Below are positions 11,318-32,783 of a stretch of DNA of 64,000 bases, one piece after another. A program made the position numbers and the translations under genes. Location: assembly GCA_032622095.1 (NCBI GenBank), contig CP136061.1, positions 16,864,440 to 16,928,439 on the forward strand, written 5' to 3'. A model generated the notes under the pieces. It searched no databases, had not been told where the DNA came from, and worked only from the letters and a program-made list of their open reading frames with translations. Position 1 is the stretch's first letter, and each line of letters opens with the position of its first letter. Source of the stretch: Siphonodentalium dalli (lineage: Eukaryota > Mollusca > Scaphopoda > Gadilida > Siphonodentaliidae).

Positions 11318-11321
11318 ATAT

Positions 11322-12021: not shown

Positions 12022-12059
12022 CTGCAAAAGTATTGAATATAATGATGTTACGTGAAAGG

Positions 12060-12298
12060 ACCTTTCATGACGAGAGCTATGCTGGTGCAACATTAAAGAC
12101 CCTGTGCCAGTACATTCTCTTATATATGCAAGTCTCCCATAGGGAGACTCCCGTATATAAGAGAATGCACTGGCTTATAAGATCAATGTAAATATTGTTA
12201 GGCCAATGCATTCTCTTATATATGTGAGACTCTCATATATAAAAGAATGCATTGGCCCAGGGTTCGCAAAATTTCAGGAAGTTCCAGTCATGGACTAG
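12060..12298. mobile_element. TTAA-type hairpin element next to the gene A acceptor
   Basis: The right end is TTAA (12299-12302) next to the complement of CCATGACTGGAACTTCCTGA. The left end is CCTTTCATGACGAGAG. These match the two ends of 32477-32756 in reverse orientation. Inside, CCCTGTGCC introduces a hairpin at about 12105-12174 and a shorter one at about 12204-12258. The left TTAA is not clear. The element ends about 38 nt upstream of the exon 2 acceptor in the direction of transcription. Confidence 0.65.
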
Positions 12299-12314
12299 TT
12301 AACTCGTCTAACTA

Positions 12315-12355
12315 TTATTCATCAGACAGTTCAAACACGCCCATCGCATCGCTAC
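12315..12355 (-). pseudogene. Short exon-2 fragment with intact acceptor and early stop
   Basis: A CTTTTGCAG acceptor on the minus strand is followed by codons for SDAMGVFELSDE and then TAA. The homology ends there, so only the first 13 or so codons of exon 2 survive. It lies upstream of gene A exon 2 in the direction of transcription. If spliced to exon 1 (phase fits) it would yield a truncated BTB protein lacking the last helices and the BACK-like tail. It is most likely a decayed duplicate. Confidence 0.7.
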
Positions 12356-12389
12356 CTGCAAAAGTATTTATAATCATGATTATAAACAA

Positions 12390-12900
12390 GACAGTCAATG
12401 ACTGTGGGTCGCTCACCAGACTGTAAAGACTGAGAAGATTGGGACTCTGATGACTACCGGTACAACAGTCAGTACTTGACAAAATCACTTAAGACAAGTA
12501 CCGTAGTTATAAACATGGACATAGCTGGAGGTTCTCAGATGAGCAGGGCTCTTCACCTTGAACTTTCTAATTGCACACCACTGACAAATCTCCAACCTCT
12601 CACCTTTTAAAGAAGACAACCATACCACAGTACTAAGTTCACCAAAATCCTTTTGCACATCCCTCTTAGGTTGGATTTTACAATTGGTACCAGTACTTCA
12701 AGCTCTCAAACTTTTGAAAATTACCAACCTGACACCCCCATAAAGTTAAAATGTGTGCCAATTCTGTCCAACAGTTTAACCTGAAGTAGGAACATATGGT
12801 CTGTTGATTTAAAAAACATACTGGTTGGAAAATCTACCAAACTGTGAGAACAATTCTAACCTATTTTTGGTGTGAACATCTAATCTACAACTAATGTTAG
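12390..12900. repeat. Dispersed repeat (AACAAGACAGTCAATGACTG family), copy 1
   Basis: It starts with AACAAGACAGTCAATGACTG and GGTCGCTCACCAGACTG, and later contains CTTGAA/CTTTCTAATTGCACACC words. Homologous pieces occur at 17805-17925 and 40440-40920. The family is unidentified and no protein is encoded. Confidence 0.55.
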
Positions 12901-13109
12901 TGTAAACATATTTTATTCCAATCATAATAACATATATACATTTGACAAAGTGTTGACAATAAAACAGAATAGGATAAATGATTGTTGGATTGGAAAAGGG
13001 ATTAAACAACAAGCCCAAGGGCTTTTGTTAAGTTTGCTCCCTTTTTTTTTCTCGCGCCCACTCTTCATTAAGTGTAGAGGGGGGTCAGACGGGAAGGAAT
13101 GGAAATATA

Positions 13110-13222
13110 ATAATAATAATAATAATAATAATAGTAATGATGATGTTATGATAGACAGGAAGATATACACATATATATATATATATATATATACATATAT
13201 ATACATATACATACACACATAT

Positions 13223-13259
<37 letters not shown>

Positions 13260-13355
13260 CACACACATACATACACATATATACATATACATATATATAG
13301 AGAGAGAGAGAGAAAGAGTGAAAGAAGACGGAAAGGGAGAGAGAGAGAGAGAGAA
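13110..13355. repeat. Compound microsatellite (AAT)n, (AT)n/(AC)n, (AG)n
   Basis: An AAT run at 13112-13132 is followed by AT and ACATAT runs to about 13298 and AG runs to 13353. Frames over it on both strands encode low-complexity peptides and are not genes. It sits just beyond the 3' side of the LINE fragment. Confidence 0.9.
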
Positions 13356-13544
13356 AATGAGACTGTCTGGGTAAAGTGATGATGTAATTCAGTTGCAGCT
13401 GATTGGTTACAATGCTGTACATATACTATTGTTTGTGTCATTGCTACGCCCGTCGCCGTGAGATGTCAGACGATCTGGGGGGGTAAGTTTCGCGCTTAGC
13501 AGTAACTCCATGCTTGACACGAAGTGTGTGTACCTATCATATCC

Positions 13545-14597
13545 TTATGAAAATCGCTTTGTTTTCAAAATATATCTTTGGACCGCGTCAAATATTTTAA
13601 TATTATCACGATGACTGAGTTCCTGTGATCCGCACAAAAGAGTATGTTCTGATAAAATAACATTCGGTATGGCGCATATAAGTTCAGTCCTTTGTCCATT
13701 GTATTCAGGACATTCCAATAAGAAGTGATGTGCTGTTTCTATTTTTCCACAATGACAGAGAGGGGACGTTTTAATGTGATTACTCAATAAGTCAGAGTTC
13801 AAACTACTGCATTTTAATCTTAAGCGAGAGTGGAGTATATGTGATCTGCGACACTTATTGCGGTAGTAGTAGGTTGGGGGGCGCCGTGTGCTTGTGTTTA
13901 GTGATTTTTTGAAGTCATCAATTGTATTACAATTGCGTATCGTGTCAGGCAGAGAGTTCCACTCACTTATAGCAGATGGCAAAAATGAATTCATGTAATA
14001 GTTGTACGAGATATCGGGTGGCAACCTTATGTGCTCAAAACGGAAGTTATAACCGGTATCGTAAGAATCAACTGGGCGTACGAGATTTCTCAGTATAGAT
14101 GGTGCTGTTCCTTTGATCATTTGAAAAAATTGGCAGAGTTTGTGTTTTCTCCGTCGCGATGATAGTAGTTCCCAGCCTGTATCCAGTAGGAGGTTCGAGG
14201 TCTTTATTTGCGCTAATTGTTGACCCTGTTACAATTCTAGCCATCTCGTATTGAACTTTCTCTATGTCTGATGATAAGAAATCGGGAATGTTGTCCCATA
14301 CAGGTGAGGCATACTCCAGTAAGGGACGTATAAAAGAAAAATATACTTTTTCCAGTGTTGATCTGCTTGCTTGATATCTTAGTTTTCGTACCAAATGCAC
14401 TCGTATCCAGGCTTTAACCAGTAATGAGCGAATATGGATCTCCCAGCTGCCTTCGTTATCAAAAATGAGTCCAAGATGTGTGTGGGTGTCAACTTCGTTC
14501 ACTATTGTATCACCCAATGCCAAGGGTGGGTGTAATACGGGTGTATCTTTTCGAGAAACCAGGAGATTCTGTCTTCAGCGGATTAAATTTGACAAGA
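13545..14597 (-). pseudogene. LINE (non-LTR retrotransposon) ORF2 C-terminal remnant
   Basis: Minus-strand frames encode the region after the reverse transcriptase core: KTES, then HTHLGLIFDNEGSW, then SFIRPLLEYASPVWD, then in a second frame RRRKHKLCQFFQMIKGTAPS, SEWNSLPDTIRNCNTIDDFK and a CHCG...HH...C knuckle ending near PEYNGQR. Frameshifts are visible near 14572 and near 14190. The 5' part with the catalytic reverse transcriptase and endonuclease is absent, as in typical 5'-truncated LINE insertions. The clade was not assigned. The stop at 13545 is followed by about 100 nt of possible 3' UTR. Confidence 0.85.
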
Positions 14598-14931
14598 CAA
14601 CTAATGTTGTATCAGGCATGCAATTTTCAACTGTTTAAATTTTGATTAAAGTAGGGGGTCAAAACTCCACACTCCCTCCCCATTGCCCCCACCCAGGCTG
14701 CCTAGAAATCAATATTATTATACCAGTACCAAACAGCATAGAGGAGAGTTAATCTCTTATCGCTGCCACTATTAGAACAAATGTGAATCCCCATCTATGA
14801 GATCCATTCACCTAGTAATATCAATATACCCCCCAATATTCAATACGGTATACCCCCCAATTATTTTTTTTGATTTGATTTCACCTGGATAAGTGGTGGT
14901 TAAGAAAATAATATTGGAACAGCCAAGCCTG

Positions 14932-15045
14932 TATTTAGTGTGTCTGACCTTTGCAGAATGAGGTCCCCAAATAGTGAATTTAATGACACTATTCCGCAAG
15001 GTGGGCTAGCATCACTGAATTCACCCTCTGGGGGCCTCTTTTCCT
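14932..15045. mobile_element. GAGGTCCCC hairpin MITE, left end only
   Basis: The word AAGCCTGTATTTAGTGTG leads into CAGAATGAGGTCCCC and a hairpin around GGTGGGCTAGC, ending in CACCCTCTGGGGGCCTC. It is then replaced by the dispersed GACGGA-tailed repeat. It is a partial copy. Confidence 0.55.
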
Positions 15046-15380
15046 AAAAATGACCCCATTTGAACAAATCTGAACCAAGGTCACTCAAGGCCCTTCCATA
15101 CCAAATATAAGCTATATAGGCCCAATGGTTCTTGACTCAATCTTGAGAAGAAATTGTTTTAAGAATTACTATTGGAGGGAAAGAGTTATGGCCCTGGCTT
15201 CACACCTATTTGATCTGATGAACTCATTTGAACAAATCTGATTGTGAGTCACCTAGGGAACATGCACAACAAAATATATGAACACATTCGGTCTTTAATA
15301 TGGAGAAGAAAACAATTGTTGATAGACGGATGGATAGACATCCCAAAAGACAGACGGATAGAAGGACCACCTGACAGACA
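15046..15380. repeat. Dispersed GACGGA-tailed repeat, copy 1
   Basis: It contains ATTTGAACAAATCTGAA, CATACCAAATATAAGC, AAGAATTACTAT and GAGTTATGGCCCTGG, then GAGTCACCTAGGGAACAT and a run of GACGGATGGATAGA-like words. The same order is found at 16970, 17945, 18590, 20740 and 42600. This is a high-copy SINE/MITE-like family of unknown class. Confidence 0.6.
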
Positions 15381-15462
15381 GAAGACAAATTCAATCCAAT
15401 ATACCCCCGAATTTTTCTTCACCTGGATAAGTGGTGGTTAAGAAAATAATATGAAACAGCCA

Positions 15463-15900
15463 AGCCTGAATTTAATGTGTCTGACATTTGCAGAATGAGG
15501 TCCCCAAAAGGTGATTTAATGACATAATTACGCAAGGTGGGCTAGCATCACCGAATTCACCCTCAGTCTGATTAGGCCTCAACTGCCATGGGAAACCTAG
15601 AAACAGATTGTAGTTCTACAGTTGAAGTTGGTGATGCACACCCATTGAGCACCTCAATTATGCATTTTATCTTCTGCAAATTAGGGGACATAGAAACTGA
15701 ACAGAAGGGAAAAGTAAAAAATATAACTAAAACAAAATTTCAATTTGATACTCAAGATACTTCCCAGAATATGAGGCCTAAGCAGAATGAGGTCCCTGGA
15801 GGGTGTATTTGGTGATGCTAGCCTGCTGTATGGGGTAGCAACTCTAAATTCACCCTCTGGGAACCTCATTCTGCAAATGTCAGATTCAGGCTTGGGAACA
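15463..15900. mobile_element. GAGGTCCCC hairpin MITE, complete copy
   Basis: Inverted outer ends are CAAGCCTGAATTTAATGTGT and the complement of ...CAGATTCAGGCTTGGGA. Each end has a hairpin with GGTGAATTT...GCTAGC. The interior has AGTTGAAGTTGGTGATGCA and a TTTATCTTCTGCAAATTAGG word shared with the copies at 19032 and 19563. Short open frames here are not conserved between copies. Confidence 0.65.
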
Positions 15901-15959
15901 GAATTTTGTTTTAATTTGATAATAACAACAAGCACCATGCAGTGCTAGTGCAGAACTTT

Positions 15960-16730
15960 GTTTACACAACCTGTCCAATAACATTCTAATCTCTAACAGT
16001 GTTTACACAAACCTGTCCAATAACATTCTAATCTCTAACAGTGTTTACACAACCTGTCCAATAACATTCTAATCTCTAACAGTGTTTACACAAACCTGTC
16101 CAATAACATTCTAATCTCTAATCTGTCATTCTAATCTCAATTAATGACCTGACTGTCTGTCTGAATAACATTCTAATCTCTAACAGTGTTTACACAAACC
16201 TGTCCAATAACATTCTAATCTCTAACAGTGTTTAAACAAACCTGTCCAATAACATTCTAATCTCTAACAGTGTTTACACAAACCTGTCCAATAACATTCT
16301 AATCTCTAACAGTGTTTACACAAACCTGTCCAATAACATTCTAATCTCTAACAGTGTTTACACAAACCTGTCCAATAACATTCTAATCTCTAACAGTGTT
16401 TAAACAAACCTGTCCAATAACATTCTAATCTCTAACAGTGTTTACACAAACCTGTCCAATAACATTCTAATCTCTAACAGTGTTTACACAAACCTGTCCA
16501 ATAACATTCTAATCTCTAACAGTGTTTACACAAACCTGTCCAATAACATTCTAATCTCTAACAGTGTTTACACAAACCTGTCCAATAACATTCTAATCTC
16601 TAACAGTGTTTACACAAACCTGTCCAATAACATTCTAATCTCTAACAGTGTTTACACAAACCTGTCCAATAACATTCTAATCTCTAACAGTGTTTACACA
16701 AACCTGTCCAATAACATTCTAATCTCTAAT
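15960..16730. repeat. 42-bp minisatellite, about 18 copies in two blocks
   Basis: The unit joins ACAGTGTTTACACAAACCTG and TCCAATAACATTCTAATCTC. The blocks 15960-16125 and 16166-16730 are separated and followed by the same edge sequence, AATCTGTCATT + CTCAATTAATGACCTGACT. That duplication of the edge suggests a segmental copy of array plus flank. Confidence 0.9.
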
Positions 16731-16969
16731 CTGTCATTATAATCTCAATTAATGACCTGACTCTGTCTGAAGCTACCTGACTGAGTTCTCTGGCAGATAT
16801 AATAACTGGTGAGAGGTAAGTTGTAATATGATATGGGGTGCAGGGGCTGTTGATTGGGGGCAGGGTGGGGGCCTGCATCATGTGGGGGGGGGGGTTGATT
16901 GAAAGATTAAAGTTTCATAACTCTAAGGATGTTATAATGGTGTTAGTTTTTCAAATTTTATAACATGTT

Positions 16970-17345
16970 TTTTTTGGGAGTTATGTCATTGGCTCCGCCA
17001 ATGATTCGACAGAATGACCTCATTTAAACAAATCGGAACCACAGTTGCCCAAGGACCCTTTGTACCAAATATGAACCCATTCGGCCCAATGAAATTTGAG
17101 AAGAAGTCGTTGTAAGAATTACTATGGTGGGAAAGACTATGGTCCTATCTTCGCAACTATTTCACCAGGTGACCTCATTTGAACAAATCTGAATGTGATT
17201 CACCTAGGGAACATCCACACCAAATATGAACCCATTCGGTCTTACAGTTCTAGAGGAGAAGATGCTTCTTGACGGACAGACGGACGGGTGGATGGCTAGA
17301 TGGACGCCGGATGAGGAGTGATGACTATAGCTCCACCGGAGATTA
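16970..17345. repeat. Dispersed GACGGA-tailed repeat, copy 2
   Basis: Same word order as 15046-15380, ending in GACGGACGGGTGG, a GAGGAGTGATGACTATAG word and CTCCACCGGAG. It directly precedes the 72-bp tandem array. Confidence 0.6.
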
Positions 17346-17346
17346 A

Positions 17347-17660
17347 AAAGTGCATAATTCAGATAATAAGTTTAATCCTTTCTATACCATAGCATTATTG
17401 ATGAGTAGTTATAGGAAATGTTCTGATAATTCAGATAATAAGTTTAATCCTTTCTATACCAAAGCATCATTGATGAGTAGTTATAGGAAATGTTCTGATA
17501 ATTCAGATAATAAGTTTAACCCTTTCTATACCAAAGCAACATTGATGAGTAGTTATAGGAAATGTTCTGATAATTCAGATAATAAGTTTAATCCTTTCTA
17601 TACCAAAGCACCATTGATGAGTAGTTATAGGAAATGTTCTGATAATTCAGATAATAAGTT
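17347..17660. repeat. 72-bp minisatellite, about 4.4 copies
   Basis: The unit contains AATTCAGATAATAAGTTTAA, CCTTTCTATACCAAAGCA and GATGAGTAGTTATAGGAAAT. Because 72 is divisible by three, one frame stays open and encodes a 24-residue repeat (NSDNKFNPFYTKA...). No start context or splice signals support expression. Confidence 0.85.
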
Positions 17661-17804
17661 TATCATTTTCGGCTTGGTCTTAGTAAACATTTTCCAAAGT
17701 ATATAATTTACGCCTCCTAATGTTATCAAGCTATGCTGACAATCAAACATAAAAAATATTATAGTGTAGACTTTACTGTAGCAGTATAATGTTTGCAAAC
17801 TATA

Positions 17805-17925
17805 CTAACAAGACAGTCAATGACTGTGGGGTCGCTCACCAGACTGCAAAGACTGATAAGACTGGGACTCTGGAGACCACAACAGTCAGAACTTTTCATA
17901 ATCACTTTAAAAGAAGTAGATATCT
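17805..17925. repeat. Dispersed repeat (AACAAGACAGTCAATGACTG family), copy 2
   Basis: It matches the first ~110 bp of 12390-12900: AACAAGACAGTCAATGACTG, GGTCGCTCACCAGACTG and TGGGACTCTG. No gene content. Confidence 0.6.
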
Positions 17926-17944
17926 AAAGAGTTAAATCTAAAAC

Positions 17945-18475
17945 AAAACATTTTGAGTTATGTCCCTGGCCCCGCCCATATTTGACCCAGTGACCTGATT
18001 TGAACAAATCTGAACCCCAGTCACCCAAGGATCCTTCATACCAAATATGAACCCATATAGCTTGATGGTATTTGAGAAGAAGTCACTTTAAGAATACTAT
18101 GGAGGGAAAGAGTTATGGCCCCTGGCTTCGCAACTATTTCAAGTGAACTCATTTGAACAAATCTGAATGTGAGTCACCTAGGGAACATCCACACCAAATA
18201 TGAAACCATTCGGTCTTATTGTTCTGAAGATGTTTAAAAGAATTACTATGGTGGGAAAGAGTTATGGCCCTGGCTTCGCAACTATTTGACCCAGTGACCG
18301 CATTTGAACAAATCTGAATGAGAATCACCTAGGGAACATCCACACCAAATATGAACCCATTTGGTCTTATGGTTCCAGAGGAGAAGATGTTCAAATAATT
18401 GTTGTCGGACGGATGGACGGACAGACGATGGACGGACGAGGAGTGATGACTATAGCTCCACCGGAGCACAGGTAG
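17945..18475. repeat. Dispersed GACGGA-tailed repeat, copies 3 and 4 in tandem
   Basis: Two overlapping partial copies repeat AAATATGAACCCAT, GGAAAGAGTTATGGCCC and GAGTCACCTAGGGAACATC. The end is GGACGGATGGACGGACAG with GAGTGATGACTATAGCTCC. Confidence 0.6.
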
Positions 18476-18589
18476 GGTGGCTGGTTGATAATTAAATCTC
18501 TTATCTCTGCCCCTATTTGAACAAACGTGAATCCCCATCTATGAGATCCATTCATTTGGTAATTTCAGACATTAGATTTTAAGAGTTGA

Positions 18590-18950
18590 ACTGAACTGAT
18601 TTTCCTAAAATGACCCCAAATCTGAAAAAATCTAAACCCCAGTCACCGAAGGACCATCCATACCAAACATAATCTAAATAGTCCAGATGGTTCTTGAGAA
18701 GAAATTGTTTTAAGAATTACTATGGAAGGAAAGAGTTATGGCCCTGACTTCTCACATATTTGAACTGATGAACTCATTTGAACAAATCTGAATGTGAGTC
18801 ACCTGGGGGACATCCACACCTAAATATATAAACCCATTTGGTCTTTAATATGTATCCGGAGAAGAAAACAATTGATGGACGGATAGAGACATAATGACAG
18901 ATGGATGGATGGGAGAACAGTCTGACATAGAGACTGACAAATTAAATCCA
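18590..18950. repeat. Dispersed GACGGA-tailed repeat, copy 5
   Basis: It has the same internal words as 15046-15380 (CCAAACATAATC, AAGAATTACTATGGA, GAGTTATGGCCCTGAC) and a decayed GATGGACGGATAGAG tail. Followed by a complete hairpin MITE. Confidence 0.55.
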
Positions 18951-19031
18951 ATATACCCCCCCAAGTTTTCTTTGCAAAATCAGGGTATAATGAGTTCAAC
19001 TGGATACTGGTGGTTAAGAACATAATATTCG

Positions 19032-19455
19032 AACAGACAAGCCTGAACATAGTGTCTGACATTTGCAGAATGAGGTCCCCAAATGGTGAATTTAATGACA
19101 CAATCCTGCAATGTGGGCTAGCATCACCAAATTCACCCTCTGGGGACCTCATTCTGTGTAGGCCTCAACTGCTATGGGAGACATAGCATTAGATTGAAGT
19201 TCTCCAGTTAAAGTTGGTGATGTGCACCCATTGGGCACCTCAATTATGCATTTTATATTCACAAATTATATAGAAACTAAACAGAAGGGCTAAAGTAAGT
19301 AAAAATGTCAATTTAAGTGCCTATATACTTCCCAGAAGATGAGGCCTAAGCAGAATGAGGACCCTGGCTAGTGTATTTGGTGATGCTAGACTGCTGTGCA
19401 GGGTAGCATAACTAAATTCACCCTCTGGGGACCTCATTCTGCAAATGCCAGATAG
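19032..19455. mobile_element. GAGGTCCCC hairpin MITE, complete copy
   Basis: The left end has CAAGCCTGAA...GTCTGACATTTGCAGAA and a hairpin to CTGGGGACCTCATTCTG near 19155. The right end near 19350-19455 has TAGTGTATTTGGTGATGCTA and ends CTCATTCTGCAAATGCCAG. The interior is shared with 15463-15900. Confidence 0.6.
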
Positions 19456-19562
19456 AAGACAAATTTAATCCAATATATACCCCCCCCCCCCCATTTTTCT
19501 TTGAATATTAGTCGTATGATTTCATCTGGATAAGTGGTGATTAAAACAATAATATGAAATGG

Positions 19563-20000
19563 CCAAACCTGAATTTAGTATGTCTGACATTTGCAGAATT
19601 AGGTCCCAAAAAATGTGGATTTAATGACAATATTCTGTAAGGCAGGCTAGCATCACCAAATTCATCCTCAATCTGATTAGGCCTCAATGGCCAATAAAAC
19701 CAAGGAACAGATTGAAGTCCTACAGTTGAAGTTGGTGATACACACCCATTGAGCACCTCAATTATGCATTTTATCTTCTGCAAATTAGGGGGACATTGAA
19801 ACTGAACAGGTGGAAAAAGTGACTAAATCAAACTGTCAATTTGATACTTAGGATACTTCCCAGAAGATGAGGACTAAGCAGAATTAGGTCACTGGCGGGT
19901 GTATTTGGTGATGCTAGCATGCTGTATGGGGTAGCAACACTAAATTCACCATCTGGTGACCTCACTATGTAAATGTCAGACACACTATTTCCAGACTTGA
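19563..20000. mobile_element. GAGGTCCCC hairpin MITE, complete copy
   Basis: The left end is CAAACCTGAATTTAGTATG + TCTGACATTTGCAGAATTA, and the right end is GTCAGACACACTATTTCCAG. The interior repeats AGTTGAAGTTGGTGATACA and TTTATCTTCTGCAAATTAGG. Together with 19032 and 15463 it defines a ~430-bp consensus. Confidence 0.6.
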
Positions 20001-20384
20001 AGAAATCAAAGCCATTCACAGTATCATTGAATGTCAGTCATCACCTAACAATGGAAGCACCAGTTTGATGTTAAATTGCTAAAGATATGTTTAGATTAGA
20101 ATAATACATGTCATCTGGCCAGTTTATATAATTAATGACCTGTACCTTTACAGATATATATGCCTCTGTGGTGAGAAGAGGTATTAAATTGAGAGGTGAT
20201 ATGGCTTGGAAGGGATGTTGGTTGATGGCAGGGTTGGGCCTGGGCCATGTGGGATGGGGTGGGTTGGGGAGGGTGGAATGTTTCCATAATTTCATTAAAG
20301 AGTAAAGTTTCATAACTCTGCAGATGTTATATATAATGGTGTCACTTTTTTTCAAATTTTAAAACATGTTTTAAAAATTATTGT

Positions 20385-20525
20385 CCCAGAAGATGAGGGC
20401 TAAGCAGAATAAGGTAATTGAGGGTGTATTTGGTGATGCTAGCCTGCTGTATGGGGTAGCAACACTAAATTCACCATCTGGGGACTTCATTCTGCAAATG
20501 TCAGACACACTATGTCCAGGCTTGG
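20385..20525. mobile_element. GAGGTCCCC hairpin MITE, right end only
   Basis: AAGATGAGGGCTAAGCAGAAT, then GTGTATTTGGTGATGCTAGC and its partner, ending TCTGCAAATGTCAGACACAC. The left half is absent. Confidence 0.5.
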
Positions 20526-20739
20526 AGAAATGAACAATGGACTATTCCTTGTAGACTCTGGTAGAATAGTTGTTTAGCTAATGTCATGTCTTGTAATGAC
20601 AGATGGTAAACTGGTCTGAAGCAAGCAGTCTGAAGCAAGAGTATCGGGTGACCACACTATGATAAATTGGCTTTTTCAATAACACAGGCTTCAGTGTTCT
20701 CTTAAAAATTAATAGTGCATAGCAAAGAGGTGTGAATTA

Positions 20740-21590
20740 TAAAGGGCCATAACTCTGTTAAAATATATCGGATCAAACCCATATTTTAACTTGATCTGTA
20801 TATAAGTGTCAAAAATTCATATACCAAATTTGGTGTTGATCAGATGAAAAATGTTTGAGTAATCCTGTCTTGGATGAATTCTATATCAAAACAAGAGTGG
20901 AAGGGGTTAAATAAACAATACCAAAATCCATACAGATGAAGAACATGCTAAGAAAAATCTAGGTAAGAAATATGAGGCTGTGATGTGTCCTAAACAAAAA
21001 TTAAAGGTCAAAATGCAAAAATTTAATTTTTTGTTTTTAAAGTTATTTCCCTGGCTCTGCCCCTATTTGACCCAGTGACCCCATTTGAACAAATCTGAAC
21101 CCCAGTCACCCAAGGTATCTCTGTACCAAATATAAGCTAAATCGGCCAAATATATTTTTAGAAGAAGTCATTGTAAGAATTACTATGAGTTATGGCCCTG
21201 GTTTCTCAACTAATTGACCGGGTGACCTCATTTGAACCAATCTGAACACCAGTGACCCAAGGACCCTCCATACCAAATATTAGCTAAATCGGCCCAATGG
21301 TTCTGAACAAGAAGTCGTTGTAAGAATTACTATGGAGGAATAGAGTTATGGCACTGGCTTCGCAACTATTTGACCCAGTGACCTCATTTGAACAAATCTG
21401 AATGAGAGTCACCTAGGGAACATCCACACCAACTATGAACCAATTCGTTATGATGGTTTCAGAGGAGAAGCTGTTTAAAAAAAAGTTTGATGGACGGACG
21501 GACAGACGGACGGACGGACAGACGGACGGACGACGGACGAGGAGTGATGACTATAGCTCCACCGGAGACTTCGTCTCAGGTGAGCTAAAA
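20740..21590. repeat. Dispersed GACGGA-tailed repeats, two types joined
   Basis: The first part (20740-20960) has GGGCCATAACTCTGTTAAAA and ATACCAAATTTGGTGTTGAT, like 30720-31050. From about 21040, two copies of the TTTGAACAAATCTGAA type follow, ending in an ACGG run (about 21490-21540), GAGGAGTGATGACTATAG, ACTTCGTCTCAGGTGAGC and TAAAAA. The last words are the complete 3' end of this family. Confidence 0.6.
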
Positions 21591-22359
21591 AACACTTATA
21601 AAGAGCGTTCCATTTGCATATGCATTTTATATACACTTATCTCTATACAATTCATATTATATTTGGGTCATTTTTTCAGTTTAATCCCTTCATACACTAA
21701 TGAAATTCGGGGTCCAGCCCTTTATATGTAACAGTCCTCAATTCATAATGTTGTTACCCCTTATTAATTGTAAGCGCATTACAATTCGTACAATTATGTA
21801 CGATATCAACATAGCTGTGTTACACCACTAAATTTATCATCTGGCAGTACAGCCAATGCATAAGCATACACTTTTGTTTACAATTAAGAATTTTTCCCGG
21901 TAGTACAATCAGGAAAGTCTATGTGTACGTTTTTACAATAATTCGTGTATAGTATCATGTTTGTGTATATTGCTTGGTGTGTGGCCCTAGCTCGTGATAT
22001 TTCTATCCCTATGATTTAAACTTTCTGAACGGTTTTACTGGTACGCTGCCGTTCTATGCTTATTCTATATTTATTTTGACATTCAAAATTGTCCGTGTGG
22101 CGCTTCGGAATGTGTACTTAGGGTTATTACGCACCTTTGTCCATGTTACCGAAGACAGGTTTACCCCTGTACTCTACGGTGTTCCCAGCCCCCCTGGATC
22201 TCTATATTGTTACAACAATATACATGTAGCACATATATGCCCAATACCAGATAGGCCCCAAGCACTTCACATTATTACCCCAGCTGTTGAGTAAAGCCGA
22301 GTCTTATGCCTGCTGCCATTTTACAGGCACTTCTCTAGAGTGGCTTACCAAGTCTTGAA

Positions 22360-22600
22360 ATATGGTGTCTGTCATTTGCAGAATGAGTTCCCCAGAGGGT
22401 GAATTTAGTGATGCCACCCCGCATAGCGGGCTAGCATCACAAATTCACCTCTGGGAACCTCATTCTGCTGAGGTGTAAGCAGAATGATTTCCCCAGAGGG
22501 TGAATTTGGTGATGCTAGCCTGCTATGCGGGGTAGCATCACTAAATTCACCCTCTGGGGAACTCATTCTGCAAATGACAGACACCCTATTTCAAGGCTTG
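22360..22600. mobile_element. GAGGTCCCC hairpin MITE, two hairpins back to back
   Basis: Two near-complete hairpins follow each other. The first (about 22377-22470) and second (about 22475-22575) each join CCCAGAGGGTGAATTT to its complement through GCTAGC-containing arms. The ends are GTCTGTCATTTGCAGAATGA and its complement. The normal ~300-bp interior is missing, so this is a minimal, nearly fully palindromic derivative. Confidence 0.65.
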
Positions 22601-22604
22601 TGGT

Positions 22605-22818
22605 TTACGCTTACCCAACAACCAGGCCCCTATAACTCTTCTAGGTATGATGAAGCGAGCACAGTACAAGTGACCTTGCCCAAGGGTCATAACCTGGCAC
22701 GAGATTTGAAACCGCGTGTGGCTCTACAGCTACAGATGATAGACTACCGGTTGGTGCGAACTCAAGCTGGTGCGTTAACACCATTACAATTCCGAGACTC
22801 TAACCACTGGGCTACCAC
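22605..22818 (-). mobile_element. tRNA-derived SINE
   Basis: On the minus strand GGTAGCCCAGTGGTTAGAG gives a good RNA polymerase III A box (TAGCCCAGTGG). A GTTCGCACC word about 45 nt on, and a GGTTTCAAATCTC word further on, are B-box candidates. The body has TTGGGCAAGGTCACTTGTAC, a word common in tRNA-derived SINE bodies. It does not fold as a functional tRNA. It is wedged between a hairpin MITE and the 45-bp array. Confidence 0.6.
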
Positions 22819-22904
22819 TTCCACAAAAGTGTAGCATTTTCTTAGTCAAGAGCCACATGCACGGCTTGTATAAAGCTGCCCAACATATCAGTAAGTAGTA
22901 AGTA

Positions 22905-24167
22905 AAAGGTGTGATAAGCCCACTGGATATCACAATGATTCAGTGTGTAAAAGGTGTGATAAGCCCACTGGATATCACAATGATTCAGTTTGTAAAAGGT
23001 GTGATAAGCCCACTGGATATCACAATGATTCAGTTTGTAAAAGGTGTGATAAGCCCACTGGATATCACAATGATTCAGTTTGTAAAAGGTGTGATAAGCC
23101 CACTGGATATCACAATGATTCAGAGTGTATAAGGTGTGATAAGCCCACTGGATATCACAATGATTCAGTTTGTAAAAGGTGTGATAAGCCCACTGGATAT
23201 CACAATGATTCAGAGTGTATAAGGTGTGATAAGCCCACTGGATATCACAATGATTAAGTGTGTAAAAGGTGTGATAAGCCCACTGGATATCACAATGATT
23301 CAGTGTGTAAAAGGTGTGATAAGCCCACTGGATATCACAATGATTCAGTGTGTAAAAGGTGTGATAAGCCCACTGGATATCACAATGATTCAGTGAGTAA
23401 AAGGTGTGATAAGCCCACTGGATATCACAATGATTCACTGTGTAAAAGGTGTGATAAGCCCACTGGATATCACAATGATTCAGTGTGTAAAAGGTGTGAT
23501 AAGCCCACTGGATATCACAATGATTCAGTGTGTAAAAGGTGTGATAAGCCCACTGGATATCACAATGATTCAGTGTGTAAAAGGTGTGATAAGCCCACTG
23601 GATATCACAATGATTCAGTGTGTAAAAGGTGTGATAAGCCCACTGGATATCACAATGATTCAGAGTGTGTAAATGGTGTGATAAGCCCACTGGATATCAC
23701 AATGATTCAGTGTGTAAAAGGTGTGATAAGCCCACTGGATATCACAATGATTCAGTGTGTAAAAGGTGTGATAAACCCACTGGATATCACAATGATTCAG
23801 TGTGTAAAAGGTGTGATAAGCCCACTGGATATCACAATGATTCAGAGTGTGTAAAAGGTGTGATAAGCCCACTGGATATCACAATGATTCAGTGTGTAAA
23901 AGGTGTGATAAGCCCACTGGATATCACAATGATTCAGTGTGTAAAAGGTGTGATAAGCCCACTGGATATCACACTGATTCAGTGTGTAAAAGGTGTGATA
24001 AGCCCACTGGATATCACAATGATTCAGTGTGTAAAAGGTGTGATAAACCCACTGGATATCACAATGACTCAGTGTGTAAAAGGTGTGATAAGCCCACTGG
24101 ATATCACAATGATTCAGTGTGTAAAAGGTGTGATAAGCCCACTGGATATCACAATGATTAAGTGTGT
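22905..24167. repeat. 45-bp satellite, about 28 copies
   Basis: The unit joins AAAGGTGTGATAAGCCCACT and GGATATCACAATGATTCAGT plus GTGTA. Copies differ at only a few positions. As 45 is divisible by three, long frames stay open on both strands: plus-strand KRCDKPTGYHNDSVC repeats and a minus-strand frame of 282 codons. Neither has an upstream coding start with plausible signals or an intron structure, and the frames break wherever a unit has an indel, so it is treated as non-coding. Confidence 0.9.
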
Positions 24168-24329
24168 AAACTAGTACTCGAGGATTTCCATATTTCCAAT
24201 TTATGCTACGACTTTCTTACGATTTTCCAATATGTTAGGCTATGTAGTATTTTGACTGTGGTACCTTCGCAAAAAATACATTTTCACATACTAAATTATC
24301 ATATGTGCAAGCAAATATCTCGACTGATT

Positions 24330-24398
24330 CAAGTATATATCTCGATTGATTGCTAAAGGTATAAATCTCGATTGATTGCTAAAGGTATAAATCCAATA
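24330..24398. repeat. Outlying block of the 26/17-bp satellite
   Basis: Two to three 26-bp modules (TATAAATCTCGATTGATTGC + TAAAGG) and one 17-bp module stand about 1.1 kb before the main array. They are either a relic of a longer array split by insertion or a seed block. Confidence 0.8.
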
Positions 24399-24404
24399 AA
24401 TATA

Positions 24405-24563
24405 GGTTATCACCACCATGTGTGTTTCTGAGATCCGTATTCAAGTCGAGCTGCCTTCTCTGGGCAGTCTATCGGCGAGTCCGTAGGACGAGTCGATAGA
24501 CAGCCCAGAGAAGGCAGCGAGACTTGAATACGGATCTCGGAAACACACAGGGTGATGATAACC
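24405..24563. mobile_element. Large palindrome with ~70-bp arms
   Basis: GGTTATCACCACCATGTGTG and GTGTTTCTGAGATCCGTAT are mirrored by CGGATCTCGGAAACACAC and GTGATGATAACC. The arms extend through CTGCCTTCTCTGGGC and GTCTATCG to a centre at GTCCGTAGGAC. It sits at the edge between the small satellite block and unique DNA, which suggests an insertion. The centre looks slightly like a hammerhead stem II, but the required core bases are absent. Confidence 0.7.
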
Positions 24564-25475
24564 AATTTATCTTACAATTCGTCCCATAAAAATGCAATAA
24601 AACTCAATTTAAAACAGGAACTATTTTATTACGCGCAACACACAACGTACACAATTCTCAGCACGCGACGTTGTGATAAGTCAAATTCTGAGAAATTCAC
24701 ATCACTATTCAAATTCACTTTGGCTGGAATCCGATTCAATGAAGAGGCGACGATATTTTCGTTTCATATGTTCGACATAATTGTCACTTTTAACAGGATA
24801 ATTGTATTATTTTATGGTGCAATCTCCTTGGATAGTGATAGTGTTGGCGAGATGCATTGCCGGAGATGACTGTCCATTCAGAGTTTTGGTGAATTTTGAA
24901 CTTTCCGACACTTCGACAATCGAGTTCTGACTCGCACTAAAATAACCCATTTAGAGGAAATGCAATAAATCACGGACATTTCGTAAGTATTCTGTTTTAT
25001 ATCCTTAACATAAGATAAAATTAATTTGATTTTCCCTTCTGTATTTTATCGAATAAAAATGCGTTCAGTAGCTTTTGATCAAGACCGTACTGAATTACGG
25101 GGAATTCCCTACTTCGCTAAAATAGAAATTGTCAAAATAGTCCGTATTCGTGCGCGCTGTAAACAATGTGTAAACTTCGTTCCTTTTTCGATTTCCAAAC
25201 ATTTTTGGGTGGTTATTTTGAGCCCTGTCTCCACATTTTGTCAACTTTATTGAACTAATTATTGATTATTTTACATTCGTAGCACACGAGTATATTATTT
25301 TACGACTTTTAGTTGGTTATTTAGACGTTTTGTTTTGAAAACAAGCCAGTTGTCGAAACGCACGTGCACCAGCTGTTGCCATCGAAGATATCCTTGTTGC
25401 CATCCAGGATACAAGATCGGAAACTGCCTAGTCGTTTTCGCGTGTATTTGATGAAATATAGCTACAATGTAAGAT
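24564..25475. other. AT-rich stretch without recognised gene
   Basis: No domain, tRNA or repeat was recognised. Short plus-strand frames (24552-24869, 25026-25253) encode peptides with no known motif. It separates the two blocks of the 26/17-bp satellite and may be inserted DNA. Confidence 0.4.
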
Positions 25476-28400
25476 AAAAGTATATATCTCGATTGATTGC
25501 AAAAGGTATAAATCCAATAAAAGTATATATCTCGAATGATTGCTAAAGGTATATATCTCGATTGATTGCTAAAGGTATAAATTCAATAAAAGTATATATC
25601 TCGATTGATTGCTAAAGGTATATATCTCGATTGATTGCTAAAGGTATACATCCAATAAAAGTATATATCTCGATTGATTGCTAAAGGTATAAATCTCGAT
25701 TGATTGCTAAAGGTATAAATCTCGATTGATTGCTAAAGGTATAAATCCAATAAAAGTATATATCTCGATTGATTGCTAAAGGTATAAATCTCGATTGATT
25801 GCTAAAGGTATAAATCTCGATTGATTGCTAAAGGTATAAATCCAATAAAAGTATATATCTCGATTGATTGCTAAAGGTATAAATCCAATAAAAGTATATA
25901 TCTCGATTGATTGCTAAAGGTATAAATCCAATAAAAGTATATATCTCGATTGATTGCTAAAGGTATAAATCTCGATTGATTGCTAAAGGTATAAATCTCG
26001 ATTGATTGCTAAAGGTATAAATCCAATAAAGGTATATATCTCGATTGATTGCTAAAGGTATAAATCCAATAAAAGTATATATCTCGATTGATTGCTAAAG
26101 GTATAAATCCAATAAAAGTATATATCTCGAATGATTGCTAAAGGTATATATCTCGATTGATTGCTAAAGGTATAAATCCAATAAAAGTATATATCTCGAT
26201 TGATTGCTAAAGGTATAAATCTCGATTGATTGCTAAAGGTATAAATCTCGATTGATTGCTAAAGGTATAAATCCAATAAAATTATATATCTCGATTGATT
26301 GCTAAAGGTATAAATCCAATAAAAGTAATTATCTCGATTGATTGCTAAAGGTATAAATCCAATAAAAGTATATATCTCGAATGATTGCTAAAGGTATATA
26401 TCTCGATTGATTGCTAAAGGTATAAATCCAATAAAAGTATATATCTCGATTGATTGCTAAAGGTATAAATCCAATAAAAGTATATATCTCGAATGATTGC
26501 TAAAGGTATATATCTCGATTGATTGCTAAAGGTATAAATCCAATAAAAGTATATATCTCGATATATTGCTAAAGGTATAAATCTCGACTGATTGCTAAAG
26601 GTATAAATCCAATAAAAGTATATATCTCGATTGATTGCTAAAGGTATAAATCTCGATTGATTGCTAAAGGTATAAATCTCGATTGATTGCTAAAGGTATA
26701 AATCCAATAAAAGTATATATCTCGATTGATTGCTAAAGGTATAAATCTCGATTGATTGCTAAAGGTATAAATCTCGATTGATTGCTAAAGGTATAAATCC
26801 AATAAAAGTATATATCTCGATTGATTGCTAAAGGTATAAATCCAATAAAAGTATATATCTCGACTGATTGCTAAAGGTATAAATCTCGATTGATTGCTAA
26901 AGGTATAAATCTCGAATGATTGCTAAAGGTATATATCTCGAATGATTGCTAAAGGTATAAATCCAATAAAAGTATATATCTCGAATGATTGCTAAAGGTA
27001 TAAATCTTGAATGATTGCAAAAGGTATAAATCCAATAAAAGTATATATCTCGAATGATTGCTAAAGGTATAAATCTCGAATGATTGCTAAAGGTATAAAT
27101 CCAATAAAAGTATATATCTCGACTGATTGCTAAAGGTATAAATCTCGATTGATTGCTAAAGGTATAAATCTCGATTCATTGCTAAAGGTATAAATCCAAT
27201 AAAAGTATATATCTCGATTGATTGCTAAAGGTATAAATCTTGAATGATTGCAAAAGGTATAAATCCAATAAAAGTATATATCTCGAATGATTGCTAAAGG
27301 TATAAATCTCGAATGATTGCTAAAGGTATAAATCCAATAAAAGTATATATCTCGACTGATTGCTAAAGGTATAAATCTCGATTGATTGCTAAAGGTATAA
27401 ATCTCGATTCATTGCTAAAGGTATAAATCCAATAAAAGTATATATCTCGATTGATTGCTAAAGGTATAAATCTCGATTGATTGCTAAAGGTATAAATCTC
27501 GATTGATTGCTAAAGGTATAAATCCAATAAAAGTATATATCTCGATTGATTGCTAAAGGTATAAATCTCGATTGATTGCTAAAGGTATAAATCTCGATTG
27601 ATTGCTAAAGGTATAAATCCAATAAAAGTATATATCTCGATTGATTGCTAAAGGTATAAATCCAATAAAAGTATATATCTCGACTGATTGCTAAAGGTAT
27701 AAATCTCGATTGATTGCTAAAGGTATAAATCTCGAATGATTGCTAAGGGTATATATCTCGAATGATTGCTAAAGGTATAAATCCAATAAAAGTATATATC
27801 TCGAATGATTGCTAAAGGTATAAATCTTGAATGATTGCTAAAGGTATAAATCCAATAAAAGTATATATCTCGAATGATTGCTAAAGGTATAAATCTCGAA
27901 TGATTGCTAAAGGTATAAATCCAATAAAAGTATATATCTCGACTGATTGCTAAAGGTATAAATCTCGATTGATTGCTAAAGGTATATATCTTGAATGATT
28001 GCTAAAGGTATAAATCCAATAAAAGTATATATCTCGAATGATTGCTAAAGGTATAAATCTCGAATGATTGCTAAAGGTATAAATCCAATAAAAGTATATA
28101 TCTCGAATGATTGCTAAAGGTATAAATCTCGAATGATTGCTAAAGGTATAAATCCAATAAAAGTATATATCTCGACTGATTGCTAAAGGTATAAATCTCG
28201 ATTGATTGCTAAAGGTATAAATCTCGATTCATTGCTAAAGGTATAAATCCAATAAAAGTACTAGTAATTATCTCGATTGATTGCTAAAGGTATAAATCCA
28301 ATAAAAGTATATATCTCGAATGATTGCTAAAGGTATAAATCTCGAATGATTGCTAAAGGTATAAATCCAATAAAAGTATATATCTCGAATGATTGCTAAA

Positions 28401-30712
28401 GGTATAAATCTCGAATGATTGCTAAAGGTATAAATCCAATAAAAGTATATATCTCGACTGATTGCTAAAGGTATAAATCTCGATTGATTGCTAAAGGTAT
28501 AAATCTCGATTCATTGCTAAAGGTATAAATCCAATAAAAGTATATATCTCGATTGATTGCTAAAGGTATCAATCTCGATTGATTGCTAAAGGTATAAATC
28601 TCGATTCATTGCTAAAGGTATATATCTCGAATGATTGCTAAAGGTATAAATCCAATAAAAGTATATATCTCGATTGATTGCTAAAGGTATAAATCTCGAT
28701 TGATTGCTAAAGGTATAAATCTCGATTCATTGCTAAAGGTATATATCTCGATTGATTGCTAAAGGTATAAATCCAATAAAAGTATATATCTCGATTGATT
28801 GCTAAAGGTATAAATCTCGATTGATTGCTAAAGGTATAAATCTCGATTCATTGCTAATGGTATAAATCCAATAAAAGTATATATCTCGACTGATTGCTAA
28901 AGGTATAAATCTCGATTGATTGCTAAAGGTATAAATCTCGATTCATTGCTAAAGGTATAAATCTCGATTGATTGCTAAAGGTATAAATCCAATAAAAGTA
29001 TATATCTCGAATGATTGCTAAAGGTATAAATCCAATAAAAGTATATATCTCGAATGATTGCTAAAGGTATAAATCTTGAATGATTGCAAAAGGTATAAAT
29101 CCAATAAAAGTATATATCTCAATTGATTGCTAAAGGTATATATCTCGATTGATTGCTAAAGGTATAAATCCAATAAAAGTATATATCTCGAATGATTGCT
29201 AAAGGTATATATCTCGATTGATTGCTAAAGGTATAAATCCAATAAAAGTATATATCTCGATTGATTGCTAAAGGTATATATCTCGATTGATTGCTAAAGG
29301 TATAAATCCAATAAAAGTATATATCTCGATTGATTGCTAAAGGTATAAATCTCGATTGATTGCTAAAGGTATAAATCTCGATTGATTGCTAAAGGTATAA
29401 ATCTCGATTGATTGCTAAAGGTATAAATCTTGATTGATTGCTAAAGGTATAAATCTCGATTGATTGCTAAAGGTATAAATCTCGATTGATTGCTAAAGGT
29501 ATAAATCCAATAATAGTATATATCTCGATTGATTGCTAAAGGTATAAATCCAATAAAAGTATATATCTCGACTGATTGCTAAAGGTATAAATCTCGATTG
29601 ATTGCTAAAGGTATAAATCTCGATTCATTGCTAAAGGTATAAATCTCGATTGGTTGCTAAAGGTATAAATCCAATAAAAGTATATATCTCGATTGATTGC
29701 TAAAGGTATAAATCTCGATTGATTGCTAAAGGTATAAATCTCGATTCATTGCTAAAGGTATAAATCTCGATTGATTGCTAAAGGTATAAATCCAATAAAA
29801 GTATATATCTCGATTGATTGCTAAAGGTATAAATCCAATAAAAGTATATATCTCGAATGATTGCTAAAGGTATAAATCTCGAATGATTGCTAAAGGTATA
29901 TATCTCGAATGATTGCTAAAGGTATATATCTCGAATGATTGCTAAAGGTATAAATCTCGAATGATTGCTAAAGGTATATATCTCGAATGATTGCTAGAGG
30001 TATAAATCCAATAAAAGTATATATCTCGAATGATTGCTAAAGGTATAAATCTCGAATGATTGCTAAAGGTATAAATCCAATAAAAGTATATATCTCGAAT
30101 GATTGCTAAAGGTATAAATCTCGAATGATTGCTAAAGGTATAAATCCAATAAAAGTATATATCTCGACTGATTGCTAAAGGTATAAATCTCGATTGATTG
30201 CTAAAGGTATAAATCTCGATTCATTGCTAAAGGTATAAATCTCGATTGATTGCTAAAGGTATAAATCCAATAAAAGTATATATCTCGATTGATTGCTAAA
30301 GGTATAAATCCAATAAAAGTATATATCTCGAATGATTGCTAAAGGTATAAATCTCGAATGATTGCTAAAGGTATATATCTCGAATGATTGCTAAAGGTAT
30401 ATATCTCGAATGATTGCTAAAGGTATAAATCCAATAAAAGTATATATCTCGAATGATTGCTAAAGGTATATATCTCGAATGATTGCTAAAGGTATAAATC
30501 CAATAAAAGTATATATCTCGAATGATTGCTAAAGGTATAAATCTCGAATGATTGCTAAAGGTATAAATCTCGAATGATTGCTAAAGGTATAAATCCAATA
30601 AAAGTATATATCTCGTTTGATTGCTAAAGGTATATATCTCGATTGATTGCTAAAGGTATATATCTCGATTGATTGCTAAAGGTATATATCCAATAAATAT
30701 CTCGATTGATTG
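25476..30712. repeat. ~5.2-kb satellite with 26-bp and 17-bp modules in higher-order units
   Basis: Module A is TATAAATCTCGATTGATTGC + TAAAGG (26 bp). Module B is TATAAATCCAATAAAAG (17 bp). They combine as A-B (43 bp), A-A-B (69 bp) and A-A-A-B (95 bp). The A module directly after a B nearly always begins TATATATC, and later A modules begin TATAAATC, so the higher-order register is marked. A modules also carry variants GATTGATT, GAATGATT, GACTGATT and GATTCATT. In-frame stops are frequent, so the array is non-coding. It would lie inside the intron of gene A. Confidence 0.95.
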
Positions 30713-30719
30713 CTAAAGG

Positions 30720-31050
30720 CATTTTGGGCTCTGAAACTCGCATACCAAATTTGGTTCCGATCAGATAAAAATTGTTTGAGTTATGACAGCATGCGTGAAT
30801 TCGAAGTCGAAAAAAAGCCATAACTCCGTAAAAAAAACTCGGATCAAACCCATATTCGAACTCGATCTGTATTTCGGTCTGAGAAACTCATATACAAAAT
30901 TTAGTTCCGATCGGATAGAAAATATTTGAGTTATCGCACCATGCGTATAGTGTCTACGGACAGACAGACAGACAGACGGACGGATGGACGCACAACGAGT
31001 GGTCAATCCAGACGTCGACATTATGTTTACCATACTATGGTATGGGTAAA
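30720..31050. repeat. Dispersed repeat with ACAG/ACGG tail
   Basis: ATACCAAATTTGGTTCCGAT and CAGATAAAAATTGTTTGAGT occur twice with variation, followed by GACAGACAGACAGACGGACG and CATACTATGGTATGGGTAA (a short palindrome). It is related to 20740-20960. It directly follows the satellite. Confidence 0.6.
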
Positions 31051-32365
31051 CATAAAAACTAAAATTTCCCCCATTGTTCATGTGTGATGATCCTTTCATT
31101 TTGAAGTACCGGTTTCTTTGGCGAGGCCAACATCAATCATTTCAGTTCTAATTAAAATTACTATGTATTACAAATAGCAGCATTACAGAGTCTATCGGAA
31201 ATAGAGGGGAATTCCATTATCACCAAAAAACATTAAGTCATGCAGTGTAAACTAATCACAACATTTATCACTAAAGCGATGAAGCCAATCAGGTGATTGT
31301 CGGAATTTCGCGACTCCACAATTTCTCACCAATTATTAAAAAACTAAGTATAGCTAAAAACAGCGTAATGAATTTCCTGCCACATTGCTAGTTTCACAGA
31401 TTTGGAGATTACGACAAATAATTTTTTTAAAAGATGCGTCTATGAAGAGTCAGCAATTGGCCAATAATAGGGGCCTACCTTGCAATGAGAATATAACTAA
31501 AGTGATGTGAAATTACCGCTGAGGTGATCCCAAGGGAATAACAAAGAATCAAGTTATTTTCATAAATTTGATATTCAAATAGTCAGAAAACAGAGTCATT
31601 GTTATATATGAATTACACACAGTGACTATTATTGTCATAATAATTAATACATTTGTGCGTAATTCAACCGTTGTGTTCTCTGTGTCGATGTGGTTGGAAT
31701 TTTCGACAATCGTTCATTACTATATTCTTCCAATGGGAATAGTGTTTGGATACTAACTGATTGGTTTTATTCAATTTTATTCAAGTCCACAATATGCCTT
31801 TTGAAATGATGAAATGATGAAATGATGGCAAAAAGTCAAGAACTGCAATATCTACCAAGGTTTTTGTAAACTGTAAAATGAGTATGATTAAACAATAAAA
31901 AAAATTGGATAATAGATATGAAATTGTACAGTAATTGTCAACCCTATAGAAACTACAGGCATGCTGCATGGTACGGTGATTACTTCTCCAGCAATGACCT
32001 GTTCAGCTTATTTGTTGTAACTAAACTCAGATTCAGCACTCCTCATTGCACTGTTGAATTTCCTTTCCTATTCTGATTGCAGTACATGTAAATGATAACA
32101 GAGTAACTCTACAATATACTCTGCCATCTAAACTACTCGTGCTGTCTGATGTCTATCTCGATAGATGGTGTGATTATGTCCTCAAGTCACCAAAGAGCAA
32201 ACGCGATTGATAATATACTGAAGTTTTCAGCTAAAACTTACTAGATTTATCAGTAAATATTTAAGCACTCGTCTACATATCCAGATATCACACATTGGAA
32301 CTCACATGGACCTAAGTATATGCATACATTACATGGTCGCTATATCTCTATGTGAGTAATGCTCA
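31051..32365. other. AT-rich stretch without recognised gene
   Basis: No protein domain, RNA gene or clear element ends were recognised on either strand. On the gene A model it is intronic. Confidence 0.4.
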
Positions 32366-32441
32366 AGGTAAGTACATGTAATTAAGTTAAGTACATGTAA
32401 TTAAGGTAAGTACATGCAATTAAGGTAAGTACATGTAATAC
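32366..32441. repeat. 19-bp minisatellite, four copies
   Basis: The unit AAGGTAAGTACATGTAATT is repeated four times with single changes. Each unit contains a plus-strand splice-donor-like GGTAAGTA word, but gene A is on the other strand. Confidence 0.8.
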
Positions 32442-32476
32442 TAATTACTATTGACTAATCAGAGATGAATGATTAA

Positions 32477-32756
32477 GCCTTCCATGACTGGAGCTTCCTG
32501 ACATTTTACGAAAACCCTGTGCCAATACATTCTCTTATATATGCATGCGAGTCTCCCATAGGCATTTTTCTTACATTCTTTAACAACTTTTGTCATTTTT
32601 TATCATTTTTTCTTACATTCTATAACTATTTTTAAAAAAAATTCTTATATTCTTTAACAATTTTATAATTTTTATAAGGGAGACTCGCATATATAAGAGA
32701 ATGCACTGGCACAGGATCTTTAATTCTGCACCAGCGCATCTCCCGTCATGAAAAGG
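32477..32756. mobile_element. TTAA-type hairpin element next to the gene A donor
   Basis: TTAA flanks it at 32473-32476 and 32757-32760. The ends are GCCTTCCATGACTGGAGC and the complement of CCTTTTCATGACGGGAG. Subterminal arms are CCCTGTGCCAATACATTCTC and its complement GCACTGGCACAGG. The inner hairpin arms are lost, so the element now folds as one large hairpin (arms about 32514-32562 and 32676-32716). It begins about 23 nt after the exon 1 donor of gene A in the direction of transcription. The copy at 12060-12298 lies in reverse orientation. Confidence 0.7.
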
Positions 32757-32783
32757 TTAAGTTTAAAAAAAAAACGAACTTAC

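Follow-up and report, generated by a model that had tools for sequence, protein, structure and literature searches.

Two inverted TTAA-type hairpin elements beside the splice sites of a long BTB gene intron are probably independent insertions of an abundant transposon family

A 64,000-nt stretch of the Siphonodentalium dalli genome (GCA_032622095.1, contig CP136061.1, positions 16,864,440 to 16,928,439, hereafter the window) contains a gene for a BTB-domain protein (gene 1) whose long intron carries one copy of a hairpin-forming element just inside each of its splice sites. The copy next to the donor is called A and the one next to the acceptor B. The original prediction took this inverted pair for a transposon-made intron bridge that juxtaposes the splice sites, and named two insertions of a common element as the alternative. 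Our analysis favors the latter: A and B probably (about 0.8) inserted independently, as copies of an abundant miniature inverted-repeat transposable element (MITE) of the piggyBac/TTAA type, and their pairing would have no evolved role. We prefer this reading because the genome holds 535,407 arms of the hairpin core of these elements and A and B resemble each other no more than random relatives do, and also because none of five paralogous introns (0/5) carries such a pair while B abuts a TTAA in a dead copy of exon 2. By the same token, the abundance of the element, the ordinary likeness of A and B, their 1 shared as against 20 private departures from the family consensus and the paralogous introns all speak against the bridge. 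The features on which the argument turns are listed below.

32784..33147, minus strand: coding part of exon 1 of gene 1, an open frame with a Pfam BTB match and paralogues
32783-32778, minus strand: donor of exon 1 of gene 1, GTAAGT, phase 1
12022..32783, minus strand: inferred intron of gene 1, 20,762 nt, phase 1
11582..12021, minus strand: coding part of exon 2 of gene 1, with the stop codon at 11579-11581
32477..32756, minus strand: element A, a TTAA-flanked hairpin MITE with its left end towards the donor
32757..32760, minus strand: TTAA on the donor side of A
32473..32476, minus strand: TTAA on the far side of A
12060..12298, plus strand: element B, of A's family, with two core hairpins and in the orientation opposite to A
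12299..12302, minus strand: TTAA at the right end of B, in register with the TTAA of an exon-2 copy at 10.66 kb

The positions first reported for A and B, about 23 nt from the donor and about 38 nt from the acceptor, were confirmed. On the donor side, where the first intron base is 32783, 23 intron bases lead up to the TTAA and 27 to A itself, and on the acceptor side 38 intron bases (12022-12059, including the acceptor AG) separate B from exon 2. BLAST aligned the two in opposite orientation as members of one TTAA-type hairpin family, with 69 of 79 positions identical in the left arms and 66 of 80 in the right arms, which confirmed that they are inverted relatives. Their outer ends had been described as complementary over roughly 60 nt; the complementarity is there, but its extent was understated, as both arms take part in it. 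The left end of A begins with CCTT, and its right end, read inwards, with GCCTT, an imperfect copy. As a separate observation, TAAGTT of the donor is complementary to AACTTA just ahead of A (32757-32783), and the donor bases were 28-79% unpaired in the local fold.

Relatives of A were taken from the first 20 places other than A among 100 listed, all of them perfect matches to the 24-mer at its left end. Four of the 20 fetched places turned out to be 37-bp arrays of the left end, which held 74 of the 90 pattern matches, and the other 16 were dispersed copies, among which L011/L012 and L024/L025 have similar flanks and may be duplicates. TTAA was present at the left end in 14 of the 16 dispersed relatives. 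In 10 of them a right end could be identified no more than 900 nt away (in L014 only 57 nt from the left end), and it was then accompanied by TTAA in every case (10/10). The consensus left end of the family is TTAACCCTTTCATGACGGGAG, and 8 of the 10 right ends read AGGGTTAA. With TTAA as target-site duplication (on both sides of A and on one side of B), terminal inverted repeats starting with CC[C/T]T, a length of 239-280 bp in A and B, no coding sequence and a high copy number, A and B have the sequence features that define piggyBac/TTAA-type MITEs.

The arm of the near-perfect hairpin core (GCCAATGCATTCTCTTATATA...) was found 535,407 times genome-wide at up to 2 mismatches, compared with 3 matches of a reversed-pattern control, which corresponds to one arm per 4.2 kb and one two-armed hairpin per about 8.3 kb. 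Exact matches to the left end plus core numbered 9,502 (control, 0), and the left end alone at up to 3 mismatches gave 37,872 matches (control, 0), a count that includes arrays and leaves out B, which has 4 mismatches. The window itself holds 22 arms of the core (994-32710), 16 of them outside A and B, a background overlooked in the original prediction. The core is common to elements with other ends, for example those at 936-1406 and 10853-11324; these two are fold-back elements, 96% identical, with ends GTGACCCGCC and the core in both arms. The core pattern had no match in the viral contigs or other-genome contigs searched, from which near relatives were possibly excluded. Elsewhere in the genome, the left end of the MITE has turned into a 37-bp tandem satellite (L009, L010, L026 and L028), and at about 735-876 kb of contig C1 the core arms among the matches listed recur at intervals that are first about 14.6 kb and further on about 11.2 kb, as if they belonged to long tandem repeats.

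The likeness of A and B was set against that of 17 relatives (136 relative pairs) over 94 alignment columns in a comparison free of the consensus. Over the first 80 columns A and B agreed at 62 of 76 positions, which is the median of the relative pairs (0.816) and was reached by 81 of them; over all columns they agreed at 74 of 94, a value reached by 49 of the 136 pairs. Since their likeness sits at or near the middle of the relative pairs, the complementarity of A and B is, as judged from these alignments, that of any two members of the family. Against a consensus that leans to A, 8 departures were counted in A and 12 in B over the 94 columns, with 1 shared and 20 private. By eye on the alignment, A and B follow different subfamilies. 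A freshly duplicated pair was considered and rejected, as B is less like A than 10 of the 17 relatives are, and A is less like B than 8 of the 17 are.

Exons 1 and 2 of gene 1 are both open and in phase. Exon 1 alone matched Pfam BTB with 58.6 bits over profile positions 7-74 of 110, and joining it to exon 2 raised the score to 70.5 bits and extended the span to 7-107. For a paralogous gene in the same window (gene 2), joining the exons raised the score from 55.1 to 61.1 bits.

56902..57291, minus strand: exon 1 of gene 2 (matched part)
53005..53388, minus strand: exon 2 of gene 2 (matched part)

The source genome (2,226,750,531 bases or 2.23 Gb, in 9 contigs) was searched for paralogues of the two exons, and seven matches to exon 1 and eight to exon 2 were retrieved. 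In addition to gene 1, the two exons occur at five loci in the order exon 1, exon 2 on the same strand, separated by a phase-1 intron whose GT-AG sites were placed from sequence; for the acceptors at C8:179.9 and C8:178.98 Mb there are two placements that differ by 3 nt and share the same phase. These two loci resemble a recent duplicate, so that the five paralogues are not fully independent. A remote exon-1 match (C9, E value 2.0e-4) and two exon-2 matches without a matched exon 1 (C1:15.92 Mb and C8:13.08 Mb) were excluded from the five. Because the five loci keep the exon order and the phase-1 intron, the 20,762-nt intron of gene 1 is very probably real, and the link between exon 1 and exon 2, which the original prediction had presumed, is now supported by homology. 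The intron is nevertheless an outlier in length, being 3.5 to 5.9 times longer than its paralogous counterparts (3,507 nt in gene 2, and 5,157, 3,757, 4,147 and 5,849 nt). It contains three tandem arrays, at 15959-16729, 22902-24170 and 25475-30690, which total about 7.3 kb; the second is a minisatellite with a 45-bp unit, in which both strands have long open frames. Two overlapping open frames at 13545-14574 (minus strand) had no Pfam match at E 0.01 and may belong to the end of a retroelement without long terminal repeats.

When the five paralogous introns were searched for the element family (BLAST, E up to 1e-5), a pair at both intron ends was found in none of them. The intron of gene 2 (3,507 nt) had no family match, that at C8:50 Mb had one element about 0.9 kb past the donor, and at C8:7.28 Mb elements lay downstream of exon 2. 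Pairing maintained by selection should be recognizable by likeness above background, shared change or recurrence, and nothing of the kind was seen beyond the single shared departure. Two other origins were also rejected. A and B are not the two termini of a single composite element of 20.7 kb, given that A has TTAA on both sides while the outer flank of B has none, and that the intron, which lies at the matching place in the paralogues, is older; the age of the intron likewise excludes an introner-like insertion that created it.

Directly ahead of B in the transcript sits a dead duplicate of the exon 2 start, with an acceptor of its own. It had previously been overlooked, and a second copy lies downstream.

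12303..12355, minus strand: dead duplicate of the exon 2 start, with in-frame TAA TAG; decoy
12356-12357, minus strand: decoy acceptor AG before the dead exon-2 copy
10514..10663, minus strand: second, degenerate exon-2 copy, downstream (tblastn E 3.58e-06)

The decoy acceptor shares the ACTTTTGCAG context with the true acceptor of exon 2 and is followed by 53 nt of the exon-2 copy, which end at the TTAA (12299-12302) where B starts. In the 10.66-kb copy the TTAA at the matching position is intact, and because the TTAA of B corresponds to this uninterrupted one, B apparently inserted into a tandem, dead copy of exon 2. The remainder of the dead copy and a TTAA on the other side of B are missing, which points to a later deletion at B. 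Judging from the sequence at C1:15.919 Mb (L037), where an exon-2 copy (1501-1878) is followed by a tandem exon-2 fragment (2140-2232), partial duplication of exon 2 recurs in this BTB gene family.

The decoy bears on the exon join itself, which could be wrong or partial if exon 1 were spliced to the acceptor at 12356 to give a truncated BTB protein, or if gene 1 were decaying. The decoy has an equal context (ACTTTTGCAG before GT) and precedes the true acceptor in the transcript, and the intron is 3.5 to 5.9 times the length of the other five, which all fits a wrong join; however, the exons are open and in phase, the BTB match improves when they are joined (70.5 bits, up from 58.6), and the tail of the decoy acceptor is more paired than that of the true one in the local fold. 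As to decay, selective constraint on gene 1 is weakly shown, because its ratios of nonsynonymous to synonymous substitution (dN/dS) against gene 2 were 0.38 and 0.49 by NG86 but high by YN00 (0.82 and 0.70). Taken together, we consider a wrong join or a decaying gene unlikely.

According to the reading with two independent insertions, A would have inserted into the already old phase-1 BTB gene intron, at a TTAA preceded by 23 intron bases, and B at a TTAA in the dead tandem duplicate of exon 2, which would have left it 38 bases upstream of the working exon. Each copy would then fold on itself in the pre-mRNA, pairing between A and B over 20 kb would be energetically possible with no evolved role, and the intron would be removed by the ordinary spliceosome. 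From the data described above we infer that the insertions were independent, that the dead exon lost its remaining part and that splicing does without a bridge.

That A and B are able to pair across the intron had been proposed together with the way to check it, by comparing the elements and predicting their pairing, and the predictions agreed. Both arms are complementary, and the predicted folds amount to -102.4 kcal/mol for A alone, -111.5 for B alone and -280.4 for the two together, a pairing gain of -66.5 kcal/mol, while the extrapolated cost of closing the 20.2-kb loop is about 14.7 kcal/mol. Between the two terminal 300-nt segments of the intron the predicted duplex was -242.3 kcal/mol, as compared with a mean of -78.6 (standard deviation, 7.8; lowest, -91.8) for the first 300 nt against 40 random internal tiles, and the cofold gain was -62.2. 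For each of the five paralogous introns the duplex stayed inside the control range of that intron; the cofold gains were -5.1, -24.9, -6.9, -5.6 and -14.0. The second of these values, from C8:7.28 Mb (duplex, -124.4), was considered as a further pair-bearing intron and rejected, as it lies inside the control range (lowest, -132.1) and its pairing is due at least partly to poly-C and poly-G runs. Other partners for A were rejected as well, the gain with five window elements in both orientations being 0 to -4.1. Complementary sequence therefore does lie near both splice sites, in the form of transposon arms rather than AC/GT repeats. A and B are, however, each a strong self-hairpin, a point missed in the original prediction. 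In these models their pairing is possible at equilibrium, where it would compete with two strong local hairpins, and A would be transcribed about 20 kb before B.

In a functional bridge, the pairing of A with B would keep the donor some 65 nt from the true acceptor while the decoy acceptor at 12356 is looped out, and exon 2 would be used in place of the dead copy. Both arms are complementary, the predicted gain exceeds the loop cost, a strong gain within the window is specific to A with B in its present orientation, and the decoy falls inside the loop, so geometry and modeled energy make a bridge possible. Against it stand the likeness of A and B, which is no higher than that of random relatives, the single shared departure against 20 private ones, and the lack of a pair in all five paralogous introns, themselves delineated from sequence. 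Moreover, with strong local hairpins and A made about 20 kb earlier, self-folding should win kinetically, and the human 5' splice site has been reported to be tethered to RNA polymerase II, which would be a general bridge (PMC8316553). We thus regard a functional bridge as very improbable. About as improbable is an accidental decoy-exclusion device, in which the pairing would loop out 20 kb together with the dead exon-2 acceptor and leave donor and acceptor about 65 nt apart. If it existed, the BTB gene would keep working despite an exon duplication and an intron 3.5 to 6 times the length of those of its paralogues, and a real bridge would show neatly how transposons can rescue splicing in a gene stretched by other repeats.

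Another view is that the pair arose neutrally and yet has a real effect, with part-time pairing giving edited double-stranded RNA or a leaky choice of exon 2. By analogy, human inverted Alus in one intron pair and are edited, and the downstream exon changes from constitutive to alternative (PMC2533698), and the predicted strength of the pairing between A and B would be ample. But the Alu pairs lie within 2,000 nt of each other, the edited ones 682 bp apart on average (PMC2533698), as against about 20 kb here, and the local hairpins compete. Such an effect is therefore rather unlikely.

Several observations weigh against two independent insertions without a role. B has no TTAA at its left end, so that its insertion is half documented. 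The consensus rows were mostly chosen by match to A, and part of the 12 departures of B may be subfamily differences. The pairing gain is not a general property of the elements in the window, being 0 to -4.1 for A with five others in either orientation and -20.2 for A with B in the wrong orientation. Finally, plain element density does not predict the placement of A and B, which is unlikely under uniform insertion. In a reckoning that assumed 200,000 introns, with copy counts that were lower bounds, partly arrays, or assumed (60,000), the probability that any one intron has left-end type elements in inverted orientation no more than 40-100 nt from each of its ends was about 1.5e-8 to 3.6e-6, or 0.003 to 0.7 cases expected per 200,000 introns; the uniform model is crude, and the placement was singled out after the fact. 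For any core hairpin within 100 nt of both intron ends the chance was about 1.4e-4, or about 29 per assumed 200,000 introns, a figure that counts hairpins near both ends and not strong pairs, since A gained next to nothing from pairing with elements that have the core behind other ends, and some copies of the core belong to arrays. In favor of separate insertions, 18 of 99 neighbor pairs among the 100 listed exact copies were inverted within 25 kb (A and B included), 9 of them in the arrangement of A and B. The methodological lesson is that, with about one hairpin per 8 kb, hairpins near both splice sites are to be expected in some introns, and for that reason a claim of a bridge needs RNA or comparative evidence.

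Apart from splicing, the family illustrates particularly clearly how MITEs can conserve an inner module, its core being common to elements with different ends, and it could supply a great deal of intronic double-stranded RNA. A and B are like the piggyBac/TTAA MITE superfamily as described in PMC2872659 in their flanking TTAA, their CC[C/T]T terminal inverted repeats and the absence of visible coding capacity. The CMITEs of Acropora in the same paper share with this family the TTAA flanks and CC[C/T]T-type ends, written in a similar style (e.g. CCCTTTCCCGTCC and CCCTTTCACTGCCA), and the hallmark of a conserved inner region behind differing ends, as well as tandem arrays. They are about 100 bp long with a 75-bp inner region, as compared with 239-280 bp here, their copies were estimated at about 1,600 in A. 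millepora as against 535,407 core arms here, and their arrays repeat whole elements whereas those in this genome repeat the left end (PMC2872659).

A literature search over titles and abstract openings yielded, among the matches listed, no case in which copies of a transposon bridge an intron from splice site to splice site in this manner, and the nearest systems are related in part. The zebrafish (AC)m-(GT)n introns (Lin et al. 2016, via PMC9198270 and PMC9024468), a class with simple repeats that is reported to splice without U2AF2, likewise have stretches close to the two splice sites that are complementary and could draw these sites together; the present case differs in being one intron, with transposon copies, known from its sequence, and without recurrence in five paralogues. 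Human inverted Alu pairs (PMC2533698) are similar in that two inverted copies of an abundant transposon lie in one intron and are able to pair, but they do so over about 2 kb, whereas A and B abut both splice sites and are 20 kb apart. Human introns also contain conserved long-range pairings near splice sites, which tend to obstruct inactive sites (PMC8052449). In the nonconventional introns of euglenids (PMC4770533) and the stwintrons of fungi (PMC9024468), in the latter of which symmetry was found dispensable for use of the distal splice sites (PMC9024468), a predicted structure draws the intron ends towards each other, as the pairing of A and B might do here; there, the structure is formed by the intron's own ends, while here it would be formed by later insertions into an old GT-AG intron.

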